DNA from: an uncultured Opitutia bacterium
Lineage (GTDB): Bacteria > Verrucomicrobiota > Verrucomicrobiia > Opitutales > UBA953
Length of the DNA stretch: 64,000 nucleotides
Direction: 5' to 3'
Assembly (NCBI GenBank): GCA_903855995.1
Contig: CAIOAN010000012.1
Location: 1-64,000 of the forward strand
The notes beneath the pieces were generated by a model. The model worked only from the letters and a program-made list of their open reading frames with translations. It did not search any database and was not told where the DNA came from. The translations under genes and the position numbers were made by a program. Of the stretch, positions 3,428 to 12,541 are shown one piece after another; position 1 is the stretch's first letter; the number at the start of each line of letters is the position of its first letter.

Positions 3428-3455
3428 GATGACAGAGGACTGAATCGATGACAGA
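3428..3455 (+). repeat. Left inverted repeat of cassette 1
   Basis: This 28-bp arm reads GATGACA-GAGGACT-GAATC-GATGACA-GA and matches the reverse complement of 3913-3940 at 25 of 28 positions. A further GAGGACTGA copy lies upstream near 3394, so the array is longer than the paired arm. Confidence 0.75.
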
Positions 3456-3522
3456 ACCCTCCAGGCCACGCTTGGGTAACAGCCTTCGTTGCGATGAGAC
3501 GGTGAAGCGGCCACCCCGAAGC

Positions 3523-3903
3523 ATGGAAACAACTCCGGACGGACCGCCCTATCGACAGCTCAAGGCTTGGATAGAATCAAGGGACTTGGCCGTGTTGATT
3601 TACAGGCTTCGCGCAAGACGACCAGCATCCATGGATTGAGGACTCGCCGACCAGATACGACGCGCAGCCATTTCAATCCCCTCGAATGTCGCCGAAGGTA
3701 TCGGTCGGGGGACAAATCGGGATTTACTTCGATTCCTCTACATCGCCCGCGGCTCCCTGTGCGAACTCGAGTCACAGATAGACGTCTGCCAGCGCACCGG
3801 CTTAATCAAAATCGAGGACAGCCGAAACATCACCGACCAAATGTCCTTGGTCGGACGCCTGATTGGCGGATTGATCAGCTACCGAAAATCCCGACCCGAC
3901 TGA
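3523..3903 (+). pseudogene. Four-helix-bundle (S23-type) protein, interrupted by an in-frame TGA
   Basis: From ATG 3523 the frame reads YRQLKAWIESRDLAVLIYRL and then meets TGA at 3637-3639 (codon 39). It continues without a frameshift as GLADQIRRAAISIPSNVAEG, then GRGTNRDLLRFLYIARGSL and so on to TGA at 3901-3903. Joined, the two parts give a full-length member of the four-helix-bundle/S23 family (about 126 residues). The stop falls where the second copy at 10.7-11.1 kb has Phe (DFALVDQ against D*GLADQ), in the loop between helices 1 and 2. A single TGG-to-TGA change would explain it. The segment starting RRAAIS matches the second copy at 37 of 50 residues. An upstream ATG at 3448 lies inside the left repeat and is less likely. 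TGA is an ordinary stop elsewhere in the window, so the simplest reading is a recent nonsense mutation. Confidence 0.8.
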
Positions 3904-3912
3904 CTATGCCCC

Positions 3913-3940
3913 TCCGTCATCGATTCAGCCATCTGTCATC
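3913..3940 (-). repeat. Right inverted repeat of cassette 1
   Basis: The reverse complement reads GATGACA-GATGGCT-GAATC-GATGACG-GA and pairs with 3428-3455 with three mismatches. More GATGGCA and GATGACG units continue to 3959. The outermost one overlaps the trmL stop codon (TGA, 3957-3955 on the minus strand). Confidence 0.75.
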
Positions 3941-9382: not shown

Positions 9383-10552
9383 TTAAGTCCGCTTCAGAGC
9401 CCGTTCGAGCCCCTGCAATCCTGCAGAAAGACCGTCCGGAGGCGTCAAAAGGCTTAAAACGACACTTGGGAGGGAGGGCGGCATGCCAAAGAAATATCCA
9501 GGGTGAAGCCAGACCCCCTCACTGAGAGCGTTCATCACAAACCGGTCCTCATGGACGCCAGGCGGTAAAGCCAGAACGGCAGTCCAGCCCGCTGGGCGAG
9601 GCAAGACCGTGCAGCCCGTCGCCGAAGCAGTCGTCCAAGTCCGGAGGGTCGCCTCACCCTGAGCCAGGCGGGTGCGGACCAGCGCGCGGAGGGGTTCGGC
9701 CCGGCGGAGGAGATCAGGCAGGGCCAACTGAGCAGGGGTGTTGACCGAAAGGAAAGCGTCGGCGATGTGCTCGAGGCGGCGACAAGCCTCGAGCGTGGCG
9801 ATGGCCGGCCCGGCCACGACAATCCAGCCAAGCTTCAGCTGCGGCGCGAGCGCCACCTTGGAAAGGCCGCTCAGCACGAAGGTCAGCACATTCGCTTCGC
9901 CGGCCCAAGTACCCGGCGAGGCCACACCTTCGGCGGGATAATCCAGAAAAACTTCGTCGCAGACGATCGCCAGGCCGTTCTTCAAAGCGAAGCCGCGCAG
10001 GACGTCGCGATCACGACGACCCACGAAAGCGCCCGTCGGGTTGGAAGGGTTGATGGCGAGAATCGCCCGGGTCTGACGATTCACACTGAGCGTCGCCGAA
10101 TCGATGACCCACTCGCCAGCCAGCTGCACGAGCTGATACGGACGGAGCGTCACGCCTTCGAGCGCGGCGATTACTTCGAGCAATGGGTAGGCGGGCTCGG
10201 GCACCAGGATTTCATCGCCTGGGTTGCACAGTAACTTGAAGACCCAAGAATAGGCTTCGCTCGTGCTGGCTGTCAGGCAGAGACGGTCGACCGGTACGCG
10301 GGCACCGCGCGAAGAGTAGTAATCAGAAACGGCGGTGCGAGCGGAGGAGAGGCCGAACGGCGTCGGATCCTGCCGCTGAATACCGTCGCGGCGCAGGAGC
10401 GGACCGAGGTCGGTGGCGGACCAAGCGAAGCCGGCGTTGGCGGGATTGGAGTCCGAGAGGTCGAGCACCGGCTGGCCAGCGGCGAGACGTTTCTCCTTGG
10501 CCTTGCTCAGGGCGTTAGTCGTGTCGGCGAAAGAGAGTCTCGAACTGAACAT
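9383..10552 (-). CDS. PLP-dependent aminotransferase (class I/II fold)
   Basis: A 389-residue fold-type I aminotransferase. AILAINPSNPTGAFV, CDEVFLDYP and the Schiff-base lysine K232 in LSGLSKVALAPQLKLGW are all present. A C-terminal arginine expected to bind the substrate carboxylate is not obvious in the rather divergent C-terminal half. The substrate is not predictable. The start codon lies only 13 bp from the left inverted repeat of four-helix-bundle cassette 2. The upstream region that would hold its promoter is therefore element sequence, or the gene is read through from the four-helix-bundle gene, which has the same orientation. Confidence 0.85.
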   Translation of the reverse strand: MFSSRLSFADTTNALSKAKEKRLAAGQPVLDLSDSNPANAGFAWSATDLGPLLRRDGIQRQDPTPFGLSSARTAVSDYYSSRGARVPVDRLCLTASTSEAYSWVFKLLCNPGDEILVPEPAYPLLEVIAALEGVTLRPYQLVQLAGEWVIDSATLSVNRQTRAILAINPSNPTGAFVGRRDRDVLRGFALKNGLAIVCDEVFLDYPAEGVASPGTWAGEANVLTFVLSGLSKVALAPQLKLGWIVVAGPAIATLEACRRLEHIADAFLSVNTPAQLALPDLLRRAEPLRALVRTRLAQGEATLRTWTTASATGCTVLPRPAGWTAVLALPPGVHEDRFVMNALSEGVWLHPGYFFGMPPSLPSVVLSLLTPPDGLSAGLQGLERALKRT

Positions 10553-10565
10553 AAAGAAGGTAGAA

Positions 10566-10594
10566 GCGGTTGGCGGTTAGCGGTTGGCGGTTGG
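10566..10594 (+). repeat. Left inverted repeat of cassette 2 (heptamer array)
   Basis: The arm reads GCGGTTG-GCGGTTA-GCGGTTG-GCGGTTG-G. It is identical over 29 of 29 bases to the reverse complement of 11246-11274. Confidence 0.93.
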
Positions 10595-10659
10595 ACCGCG
10601 AAGGTGGCAACAATCCGCAAGCAGACCCCACAAGCAAGGGTTATGAGCCCGGAGGGGAC

Positions 10660-11121
10660 TTATGTCCTATGGCGCGTGTCAGTAGACCGGAAGGACGGAG
10701 CCGAAGGCCCGATTACCTTGTCGGGCTCGGCGGCGCCGTCGCGACGAGAGGCCCGGAATCGAACAAGCCCTCCGAGGGGACGGCCAGCTTCCTCGGCGCG
10801 GCCCAGAAGCGACTCGCAGATACGGCTATCCAGAAGGCCGGCCTCCTGCATCACCTCCACCTGGGTGCGCAGCTCACACAAGGAACCCCTCGCGATGTAA
10901 AGGAACCTCAGGGCGTCCTGATTCGTCCCCCGGCCAGCGCCTTCGGCGATGTTCGACGGCACAGAGATCGCCGCCCGGCGAAGCTGATCGACGAGTGCGA
11001 AGTCATTCCGGACCGCCGCGACATTCACGACTCGATACACTTCGACCGCGAGGGCCTTGGCGGCCTTCCATGCCGAAAGATCGCGATAACTGACTACCTT
11101 GGGATTCTCTTGGGGATGCAT
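10660..11121 (-). CDS. Four-helix-bundle protein (S23/IVS-encoded family)
   Basis: A protein of about 153 residues in the TIGR02436-type four-helix-bundle family. YRDLSAWKAAKALAVEVYR forms helix 1, LVDQLRRAAISVPSNIAEG the signature, and GRGTNQDALRFLYIARGSL plus CELRTQVEVMQEAGLL the later helices. Relatives were first seen as ORFs of intervening sequences in 23S rRNA of Leptospira and Coxiella, and Avd of diversity-generating retroelements shares the fold; nucleic-acid binding is suspected. ATG 11121 (MHPQENPKVVSYRDL) is preferred, with GGGGAG just upstream; the frame is open to 11256. About 30 residues after RFRASR extend beyond the usual family end. The intact copy here contrasts with the TGA-interrupted copy at 3.5 kb. 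Confidence 0.82.
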   Translation of the reverse strand: MHPQENPKVVSYRDLSAWKAAKALAVEVYRVVNVAAVRNDFALVDQLRRAAISVPSNIAEGAGRGTNQDALRFLYIARGSLCELRTQVEVMQEAGLLDSRICESLLGRAEEAGRPLGGLVRFRASRRDGAAEPDKVIGPSAPSFRSTDTRHRT

Positions 11122-11245
11122 AGACTCCCCATCATCAAGAAACGCGCTCCCACCGCACGTCCCGCTATTACCCATGACACGACTGACAAACTTCCTCCAC
11201 GCCCAGACCCCATAATATCCCCACCCTGCCGCTTTGTGCGCCATC

Positions 11246-11274
11246 CCAACCGCCAACCGCTAACCGCCAACCGC
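11246..11274 (-). repeat. Right inverted repeat of cassette 2 (heptamer array)
   Basis: The exact reverse complement of 10566-10594. It lies 64 bp before the fabV start codon, so the element also borders the fabV 5' region. Confidence 0.93.
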
Positions 11275-11338
11275 CGCCACCCCCTTTGCCTCCCAATTCC
11301 AGATTGAACTCATCCCCTCCCCCTCCAAAGGTGTCCCC

Positions 11339-12541
11339 ATGTCCCAGCAAGTCGTGAAGCCCCGTGTCCGTGGGTTCATCTGCATCACCTCCCACCCCGA
11401 CGGCTGTGCCGCCGCCGTTCGTGAGCAGATTGCCTACGTAAAATCCCGCCAACCCATCCAAGGTGGACCCAAGTCCGTCTTAGTGATCGGCGCTTCCACG
11501 GGCTACGGCCTGTCTTCTCGCATCTCCGCCGCCTTCGGTTCCGGCGCCGCCACGCTCGGCGTGTTTTTCGAACGCAACGGCGAAGGCGACAAGCCCGGCT
11601 CGCCCGGCTGGTACAATACCGCCGGCTTCCACGCCGAAGCGAAGAAGGCCGGCCTCAAGGCCGTCTCGATCAATGGCGACGCCTTCTCGGCGGAGCTAAA
11701 GACCCAAGTCATCGATGCCATCAAGTCGAAGATGCCTGGCGGAAAGATCGACCTCGTCGTCTACTCCCTCGCCTCCCCTCGCCGCACCGCTCCCGATGGC
11801 GTAACATATAAGTCCGTCCTCAAACCAACCGGCGCACCTTTCCACGCCAAGAACCTCGATACCGACCGCAAGGTCGTGAACGACGTCACCCTAGAAACCG
11901 CCTCGGCCGACGACATCGCGCAGACGGTTAAGGTCATGGGCGGCGAAGACTGGGAACTCTGGATGAACGCCCTCGACGGCGCCGGCGTCCTCAAAGAAGG
12001 CTGCCAGGCGGTCGCCTACTCCTACATCGGGCCGCAGGTCACCTGGCCGATCTACAAGGACGGCACCATCGGCAAGGCGAAGGAAGACCTCGAACGCGCC
12101 GGTCGCAAAATCGACAGCCTGATGAAGCTCCATCGCGGCCGCGCCTTCGTCTCAGTCAACAAGGCCGTCGTCACGCAGGCCAGCTCCGCCATCCCGGTCG
12201 TCCCCCTCTACGTCTCGCTGCTCTTCAAGATCATGAAGGCCAAGGGCACGCACGAAGGCTGCATCGAGCAGATCCAGCGCCTCTTCGAGAAGCAGATGTA
12301 CAACGGCAACGCCCTCGACTTCGACGAGAACGGACGCGTCCGCATCGATGACTGGGAAATGTCCGACGACGTACAGAAGGCCGTCTTCGACGTCTGGCCG
12401 CATGTCACGACCGAGACTTTCGACACCCACGCCGACTTTGCCGGCTACCAGGCCGACTTCATGAAGAACTTCGGCTTTGGCCTCGCCGGCATCGACTACG
12501 AAGCCCCGACCGAAGTCGAACGCACCCTCGAGGACGCTTAA
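11339..12541 (+). CDS. fabV: Enoyl-ACP reductase FabV (NADH-dependent trans-2-enoyl reductase)
   Basis: A 400-residue FabV/TER-type enoyl reductase for the last step of fatty-acid elongation. The NADH-binding motif GASTGYGLSSR is at 51-61. The catalytic Tyr-x8-Lys pair is Y239 and K248 in IYKDGTIGKAK. The family-specific PRVRGFICITSHPDGCAAAV opening and the long insert compared with FabI are both present. FabV-type reductases are generally triclosan-tolerant. It is followed immediately by parA, whose GTG start abuts its TAA stop. Confidence 0.95.
   Translation: MSQQVVKPRVRGFICITSHPDGCAAAVREQIAYVKSRQPIQGGPKSVLVIGASTGYGLSSRISAAFGSGAATLGVFFERNGEGDKPGSPGWYNTAGFHAEAKKAGLKAVSINGDAFSAELKTQVIDAIKSKMPGGKIDLVVYSLASPRRTAPDGVTYKSVLKPTGAPFHAKNLDTDRKVVNDVTLETASADDIAQTVKVMGGEDWELWMNALDGAGVLKEGCQAVAYSYIGPQVTWPIYKDGTIGKAKEDLERAGRKIDSLMKLHRGRAFVSVNKAVVTQASSAIPVVPLYVSLLFKIMKAKGTHEGCIEQIQRLFEKQMYNGNALDFDENGRVRIDDWEMSDDVQKAVFDVWPHVTTETFDTHADFAGYQADFMKNFGFGLAGIDYEAPTEVERTLEDA

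Follow-up and report, generated by a model that had tools for sequence, protein, structure and literature searches.

A PF05635 four-helix-bundle gene between inverted heptamer arrays, a probable copy of a class of bacterial mobile elements

The cassette between the aminotransferase and fabV genes

We analyzed a 64,000-nucleotide stretch of DNA (the window) from an uncultured Opitutia bacterium, in which an aminotransferase gene and a fabV gene are divergently oriented and a 709-bp cassette lies in their common upstream region (Table 1). The cassette is bordered by two arms that are identical at 29 of 29 bases in inverted orientation, and the perfect match ends there, with no outward extension. 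A first-pass annotation, made from the sequence alone, had described each arm as four 7-bp units, and this was correct apart from one extra base, each arm consisting of four GCGGTTR units and one base. It had also stated that a four-helix-bundle gene, and no transposase, lies between the arms. Indeed, the sole recognizable gene there is a PF05635 gene on the minus strand (Pfam 23S_rRNA_IVP, E = 3.8e-30), no transposase domain was found in the cassette, in which PF05635 was the only Pfam family matched, and PADLOC gave no match to a defense system. The stop codon of the gene is at 10660-10662, and its likely start is the ATG at 11121, preceded by GGGGAG; a longer, 198-residue reading with a TTG start, on which NCBIfam TIGR02436 (four helix bundle) was matched, would begin within the array. 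An overlapping open reading frame (ORF) on the plus strand (10570-11307) had no Pfam match at E ≤ 0.001.

Table 1. Features of the junction and of a second cassette in the window
Feature	Position	Strand	Location or basis
Left array, GCGGTTR x4 + G (G-rich strand on +)	10566..10594	+	Downstream of four-helix-bundle gene
Right array, perfect inverted copy of left (29/29)	11246..11274	-	Upstream of four-helix-bundle gene
PF05635/TIGR02436 four-helix-bundle (S23p/IVP) gene, 153 aa	10660..11121	-	Pfam, reading frame, fold
13-bp leader, aminotransferase start codon to left array	10553..10565	.	Junction comparison
Aminotransferase gene, left flank of insertion site	9383..10552	-	
fabV gene, right flank of insertion site	11339..12541	+	
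Second PF05635 cassette, decayed	3428..3940	+	Profile match, arms

The inverted arms are not due to chance, since the other inverted pairs in 10300-11600 are sub-repeats of these arms or only 12 to 17 nt long, and since arms scoring at least 14 were found around 74 of 83 PF05635 genes of the genus and order but around a single one of the 194 ordinary ORFs taken from related loci. In a predicted RNA fold the two arms pair with each other (z = -3.7 versus 20 shuffles), and an RNA form of the cassette may therefore be possible. The long hairpin proposed in the first-pass annotation is thus plausible as a predicted fold, but a perfect stem does not seem to be what is kept: the arms of relatives at the fabV locus vary, as judged by eye, in unit number and variant, and most arms away from this locus are imperfect, so it is the unit and the inverted orientation that seem to be maintained. 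Strict compensatory pairing of the arms was rejected on the same variation among the fabV-locus relatives. The second cassette of the window is decayed, its gene match (3553-3867) containing one TGA and its arms (about 3428-3455 and 3913-3940) consisting of GATGAC-type units.

The AlphaFold model of the encoded protein consists of four helices (mean pLDDT, 86.8), and Foldseek placed it nearest to the PF05635-type structures 2GSC (the closest, a PF05635 protein encoded by Xanthomonas campestris) and 2RLD. The accessory protein Avd of diversity-generating retroelements (DGRs) was the next, weaker fold match (4DWL, E 0.029, TM 0.86 by target; also 8UB7), and a resemblance of PF05635 to Avd has been noted in print (PMC10053308). 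Residues Q34, R37, S41, N45, A47, E48, G49, S68, and E71 were invariant in 18 family members. No nuclease, recombinase, or polymerase match was obtained for the protein, PF05635 being its sole family, and this counts against the mobile-element reading. Its nearest solved relative is described as a pentameric ring, and S23p proteins as lacking a known function (PMC4990558).

Inverted arms and gene-less arrays in other genomes

PF05635 genes were found in 37 of 41 genomes of the genus, a wider count than that of the genomes from which cassettes were analyzed, and in many phyla in a scan of named genomes. The source genome of the window has five PF05635 matches, all five with inverted arms scoring at least 16 and each with a different unit. 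The genus and order set comprised 89 genes (orthologous copies counted separately, three from fabV loci; fragments, several weak matches, and the fetched stretch L155 left out), of which 6 were dropped for short flanks. Arms scoring at least 16 were present in 70 of the remaining 83. Ordinary ORFs treated in the same way gave 1 of 194, and mismatched pairs of upstream and downstream flanks, some of which have a unit family in common, gave 101 of 3,000. Across phyla, where the best 80 of at least 590 matches in named genomes were taken and 2 were dropped for short flanks, such arms were present in 36 of 78 loci versus 11 of 417 ORFs, and outside Bacteroidota in 19 of 33 of these best loci. The inverted arms are thus no peculiarity of the window's locus. 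The cassettes below a score of 16 (13 of 83 in the genus and order, 42 of 78 in the wide set) count against a mobile-element reading. On cyanobacterial plasmids (12 of 19 plasmid records: H1, H4-H13, and H15), 9 of 12 PF05635 genes had arms scoring at least 16 and 11 of 12 at least 14, in a set without an ORF control, and most arms were close to the start and stop codons.

Within a cassette, both arms are built from matching units, which differ between protein lineages and are mostly 7 or 8 bp long. A clear unit period was obtained for 48 of the 70 genus and order arm pairs (7 bp in 21, 8 bp in 13, 12 bp in 7, 6 bp in 4, and 11 bp in 3), and the other 22 had no clear period; in 66 of 70 cassettes, purines made up over half of the upstream arm on the coding strand. 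Tandem 7- to 8-bp arrays were found in at least one flank of 36 of 78 wide-set and 27 of 83 genus and order PF05635 genes, compared with 9 of 145 and 2 of 112 control windows, respectively, further from the genes. The unit appears to follow the protein. Among 74 genus and order cassettes with arm scores of at least 14, the fraction of pairs at different loci that have common arms rounds to 0.00 below 50% protein identity (2,165 pairs), is 0.37 at 60 to 70% identity (43 pairs), and reaches 7 of 7 pairs, from few families, at 70% or more.

Two further regularities were tried and rejected. A fixed array length was not found, 30 of 117 arrays having lengths of 4p+1 to 4p+3, where p is the unit period, which is a weak mode only. 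In a TRAP-like model, each subunit of a ring would read a conserved AG in the unit; this idea was dropped because AG was no commoner in the units (16 of 28 families) than in shuffled units (17.1). Separately, a small hairpin with the core GCGAAGC lies between or beside the units in some arm families (at L143, L144, L141, and L066; GGAGCGAAGCTCC, CTGCTGCGAAGCAG), and hairpins with this core are unusually stable mini-hairpins. Some cassettes (L319, L321, and L323) lie within CRISPR-cas operons, namely between cas6 and cas4 on Pseudanabaena and Anabaena plasmids (type I-D in Anabaena) and, in Picosynechococcus, with cas10 on one side and the type III-B Cmr3 gene on the other.

Arrays also occur apart from PF05635 genes. 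In the source genome, GCGGTTR arrays lie at 42 merged places, with 59 matches at up to two mismatches versus 16 for the reversed pattern. The 41 genus genomes contain 0 to 114 GCGGTTR-array matches at one mismatch (reversed-pattern control, up to 19) and 0 to 40 matches to GTGCAAAR (control, 0 throughout). Opposite-strand array pairs within 450 bp were convergent, the orientation found in cassettes, in 19 cases and divergent in none in five genomes, and no opposite-strand pair was seen by eye among the few places listed for G038 and G053. Besides, 33 of 61 genus cassette arms recurred in 190 kb of non-PF05635 sequence, whereas none of the 9 arms from the order and none of the 36 from other phyla did so; this sequence set was partly chosen through two array families, whose counts are inflated. 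G002 has a complete copy of one gene-less array pair that its sister G050 lacks. In intergenic mosaics at L158, L159, L293, and L297, array pairs of one unit family appear by eye to be nested within those of another.

Some genomes, such as G015 and G016, are rich in GCGGTTR arrays and have no matching cassette in their incomplete assemblies, which is a point against the mobile-element reading. Five genomes without a full PF05635 gene (one of them, G006, with a single sub-threshold fragment) have 0 to 5 arrays versus a median of 32, but since these genomes are small (0.9 to 1.8 Mb) and incomplete, their low counts are not independent evidence.

Filled and empty sites

Among the 33 fabV loci of the genus, 30 were fetched, and 29 contained both genes and thus gave a readable junction. 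The window cassette was present in 7 of these 29 junctions and absent from 22, and a lone GCGGTTR-type array was left, as judged by eye, in three of the empty ones (G050, G003, and G039). The first-pass annotation had proposed a mobile element, to be given up if close relatives always kept the arms and gene together here and nowhere else. They do not, and with arrays elsewhere in the genomes and other PF05635 cassettes at other loci, the proposal stands. For 5 of the 7 filled alleles, the sister allele in a flank tree of 25 genomes is empty.

At third positions, the cassette is less diverged than its flanks in several pairs of genomes, for example between G017 and G020 (0.90, versus 0.59 for the aminotransferase gene and 0.72 for fabV) and between G000 and G014 (0.82, versus 0.52 and 0.69, respectively). 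In other pairs it is about as diverged as a flank or more so, as between G000 and G022 (0.63, versus flanks of 0.60 and 0.74) and between G011 and G022 (0.61, versus 0.76 for the aminotransferase gene and 0.83 for fabV), and this counts against the mobile-element reading. The filled alleles have a short leader in common, and the empty alleles have other, longer leaders; homologous exchange of this region could explain how the filled alleles spread. At other loci, a G001 cassette is 97% identical to one of G008 and occupies a different locus; the junction that holds it in G001 is 41 bp long in G002 and 59 bp in G039, and contains other array families in other relatives. Conversely, one site with both flanks homologous holds unrelated cassettes (at most 31% protein identity, different units) in different genomes.

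The cleanest filled and empty cases are named Nostocales plasmid records, most of them circular. Inserts with an intact gene were found in Calothrix brevissima (517 to 518 bp; none in Tolypothrix, Aulosira, or Nostoc carneum), in Nostoc ATCC 53789 (503 to 510 bp; compared with Nostoc C052 and C057), and on a Nostoc edaphicum plasmid (L315), where a 494-bp insert lies antisense between the two ribonucleotide reductase genes and is absent in Calothrix NIES-4105. Intact-gene inserts of 477 to 486 bp are present in Nostoc C052 and at a second site of N. edaphicum (compared with C057 and UHCC 0926). In the same operon family, other plasmids have a further insert of 413 to 433 bp at a position one gene before this, where the 601-bp copy of L336 has a shortened PF05635 gene; different plasmids carry different cassettes at adjacent junctions of one operon family. 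Full elements mostly sit between genes and span 413 to 518 bp in these cleanest cases, and the genes flanking the plasmid inserts are still annotated as open.

The first-pass annotation had suggested alignment to define the ends and any target duplication. In the plasmid comparisons, no target duplication of constant length was found: between 2 and 42 bp of the empty site are gone, or there is an overlap of 3 or 5 bp. In L314, about 45 bp lie between the right array and the resumption of the flank, which indicates that the arrays are near the element ends and not always at them. L314 itself carries a cassette a gene further on, and for this reason its comparison with L335 and L337 was left out. 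At the junction that carries a cassette in Anabaena sp. 90 (L325), Dolichospermum UHCC 0315A has a different sequence, 273 bp long and with GTAGGTTGGGTT-type inverted sequences at its borders, so this pair represents a replacement and not an empty site.

Proposed mechanism, alternatives, and known systems

Comparison between genomes establishes the architecture of these cassettes, the existence of matched gene-less pairs, and the fact that cassettes were gained and lost in the course of evolution. From such comparison, a cassette of about half a kilobase, with no known transposase, appears to have entered many different sites in a wide variety of bacteria. We infer that the PF05635 protein acts on the arrays, and the feature in the window is probably one copy of a mobile-element class that works in this way. 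The full element would consist of a tandem array, a PF05635 four-helix-bundle gene, and an inverted tandem array. The protein would recognize its own array unit, as DNA or as its hairpin or single strand, and bring the two element ends together; enzymes of host replication or repair would then bring the element into a new gap by copying or joining, in many cases at the cost of some target bases. Gene-less array pairs would be nonautonomous derivatives moved in trans, by analogy with the proposed movement of REPINs by RAYTs. With less assurance, we lean toward a broader proposal, in which a very small element class, with one protein of about 120 to 150 residues and no known transposase fold, recognizes tandem 7- to 8-mers at its inverted ends and moves both itself and gene-less pairs, and in which rRNA intervening sequences (IVSs) and several published heptamer-repeat families are its members or remains.

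Movement of the arrays by another enzyme, either a Y1 (RAYT) transposase or general repair, with the four-helix-bundle gene as cargo or accessory, is unlikely, although it is the strongest of the alternatives. It agrees with the absence of any family match but PF05635 in the window protein, with the Y1_Tnp matches found in 20 of the 41 genus genomes, which exceed the cut-off in 16, and with REP-like GTAGGG palindromes that are nested, by eye, with the arrays. Besides, array number correlates about as well with Y1 number (rho, 0.63) as with PF05635 number (rho, 0.59), and Y1 may therefore have a helper role. However, 0 to 88 arrays are present in the 16 genomes in which PF05635 but no Y1 was detected, and by eye none of the eight Y1 loci examined has tandem-heptamer arms: in three of them, inverted repeats scoring at least 16 lie in wide flanks, but by eye these are palindromic or REP-like and not tandem 7- to 8-mers. 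It is the PF05635 genes that carry arms whose units follow the protein lineage. In the source genome, a Y1 transposase gene flanked by GTAGGG-tagged palindromes (L311; contig C10, near 43114) looks like a REPIN/RAYT-type system that coexists with the heptamer arrays.

We consider it rather improbable that the arrays are nonmobile regulatory sites, at which the protein binds array RNA or DNA and controls its own and other genes, and that cassettes spread solely by ordinary horizontal transfer and homologous recombination. Arrays do occur in leaders and shared upstream regions, the pentameric ring reported for the nearest solved relative (PMC4990558) is a shape suited to binding repeats, and the short leader common to the filled fabV alleles is expected from exchange of the whole junction. 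Yet inserts at unrelated junctions whose flanking genes are still annotated as open, cassettes that are nearly identical but sit at different loci, and the unrelated cassettes that share a single locus require nonhomologous entry. Finally, a retroelement in which the four-helix-bundle protein acts with a reverse transcriptase as DGR Avd does, a reading to which the Avd-like predicted fold and its printed counterpart (PMC10053308) lend some color, is highly improbable, and for the genus this mechanism is disfavored because a single genome of the 41 had a match to RVT_1, and this was not the source genome, which is 97% complete.

The likeness to 23S rRNA IVSs, pointed out in the first-pass annotation, looks apt for the mobile element proposed here. 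The window cassette encodes an S23p/IVP protein with 2GSC as the nearest structure, and it shares with IVSs complementary borders and a patchy distribution. In the 23S rRNA IVS of Coxiella burnetii, up to three tandem GACAGAT heptamers and a variant lie upstream of the S23p ORF (PMC4990558), which suggests that rRNA IVSs may belong to the heptamer-armed class. On the other hand, IVSs are located within rRNA genes, from whose transcripts RNase III removes them (PMC4990558), whereas the window cassette lies between protein-coding genes; the accessible part of that paper calls the function and origin of IVSs unclear and describes no intergenic relatives.

REPIN/RAYT systems likewise consist of short repeats that form inverted pairs around a spacer and are dispersed between genes; a genome has several such families, and each is found next to a single-copy gene of its own (PMC3116915). 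The dispersed, convergent pairs found here resemble them, but REPs are palindromic, with a Y1 transposase as their presumed enzyme (PMC3116915), whereas the ends of the present elements are tandem 7- to 8-mers and the gene encodes a four-helix bundle without a Y1 match. Avd functions with a reverse transcriptase and TR/VR repeats (PMC10053308), and the present protein is similar to it in predicted fold and different in that RVT_1 is nearly absent from the genus. Insertion sequences and MITEs of the DDE type differ in that the window cassette has no transposase match and the plasmid sites lack a target-site duplication of constant length.

Published heptamer families may be compared as well. 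The GGGAATC heptamers of Xanthomonas form 70 and 75 convergent pairs in two genomes and were generally not found by their authors to be associated with mobile elements (PMC4692102); they are similar to the present arrays in their convergent pairing, and X. campestris encodes the PF05635 protein of 2GSC. TAACTGA of Beggiatoaceae and cyanobacteria is an intergenic tandem heptamer scattered through genomes, described as a direct repeat with a proposed regulatory role (PMC4679880). In the accessible main text, the former paper does not mention "intervening," and the latter mentions none of "four helix," "four-helix," "S23," and "intervening." A full-text search judged by titles and abstract openings, which covered few subscription papers or preprints, found no paper linking PF05635 to flanking tandem arrays in intergenic DNA. 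The heptamer-armed PF05635 element falls outside REPIN/RAYT systems, insertion sequences, DGRs, and IVSs as these are defined, and we therefore regard it as a new kind of system.

One element class could explain S23p proteins, rRNA IVSs, and intergenic heptamer repeats together, and if IVSs are its rRNA-inserted members, the heptamer-armed class would be the wider one. If the protein indeed binds the unit and moves array pairs, transposition would be driven by a protein that has about 120 residues and no recognized nuclease motif, and the 413-bp insert would be, to our knowledge, among the smallest elements carrying their own gene. Because the unit varies between lineages and yet matches on both arms, these elements would be a good system for studying the evolution of protein-repeat recognition.
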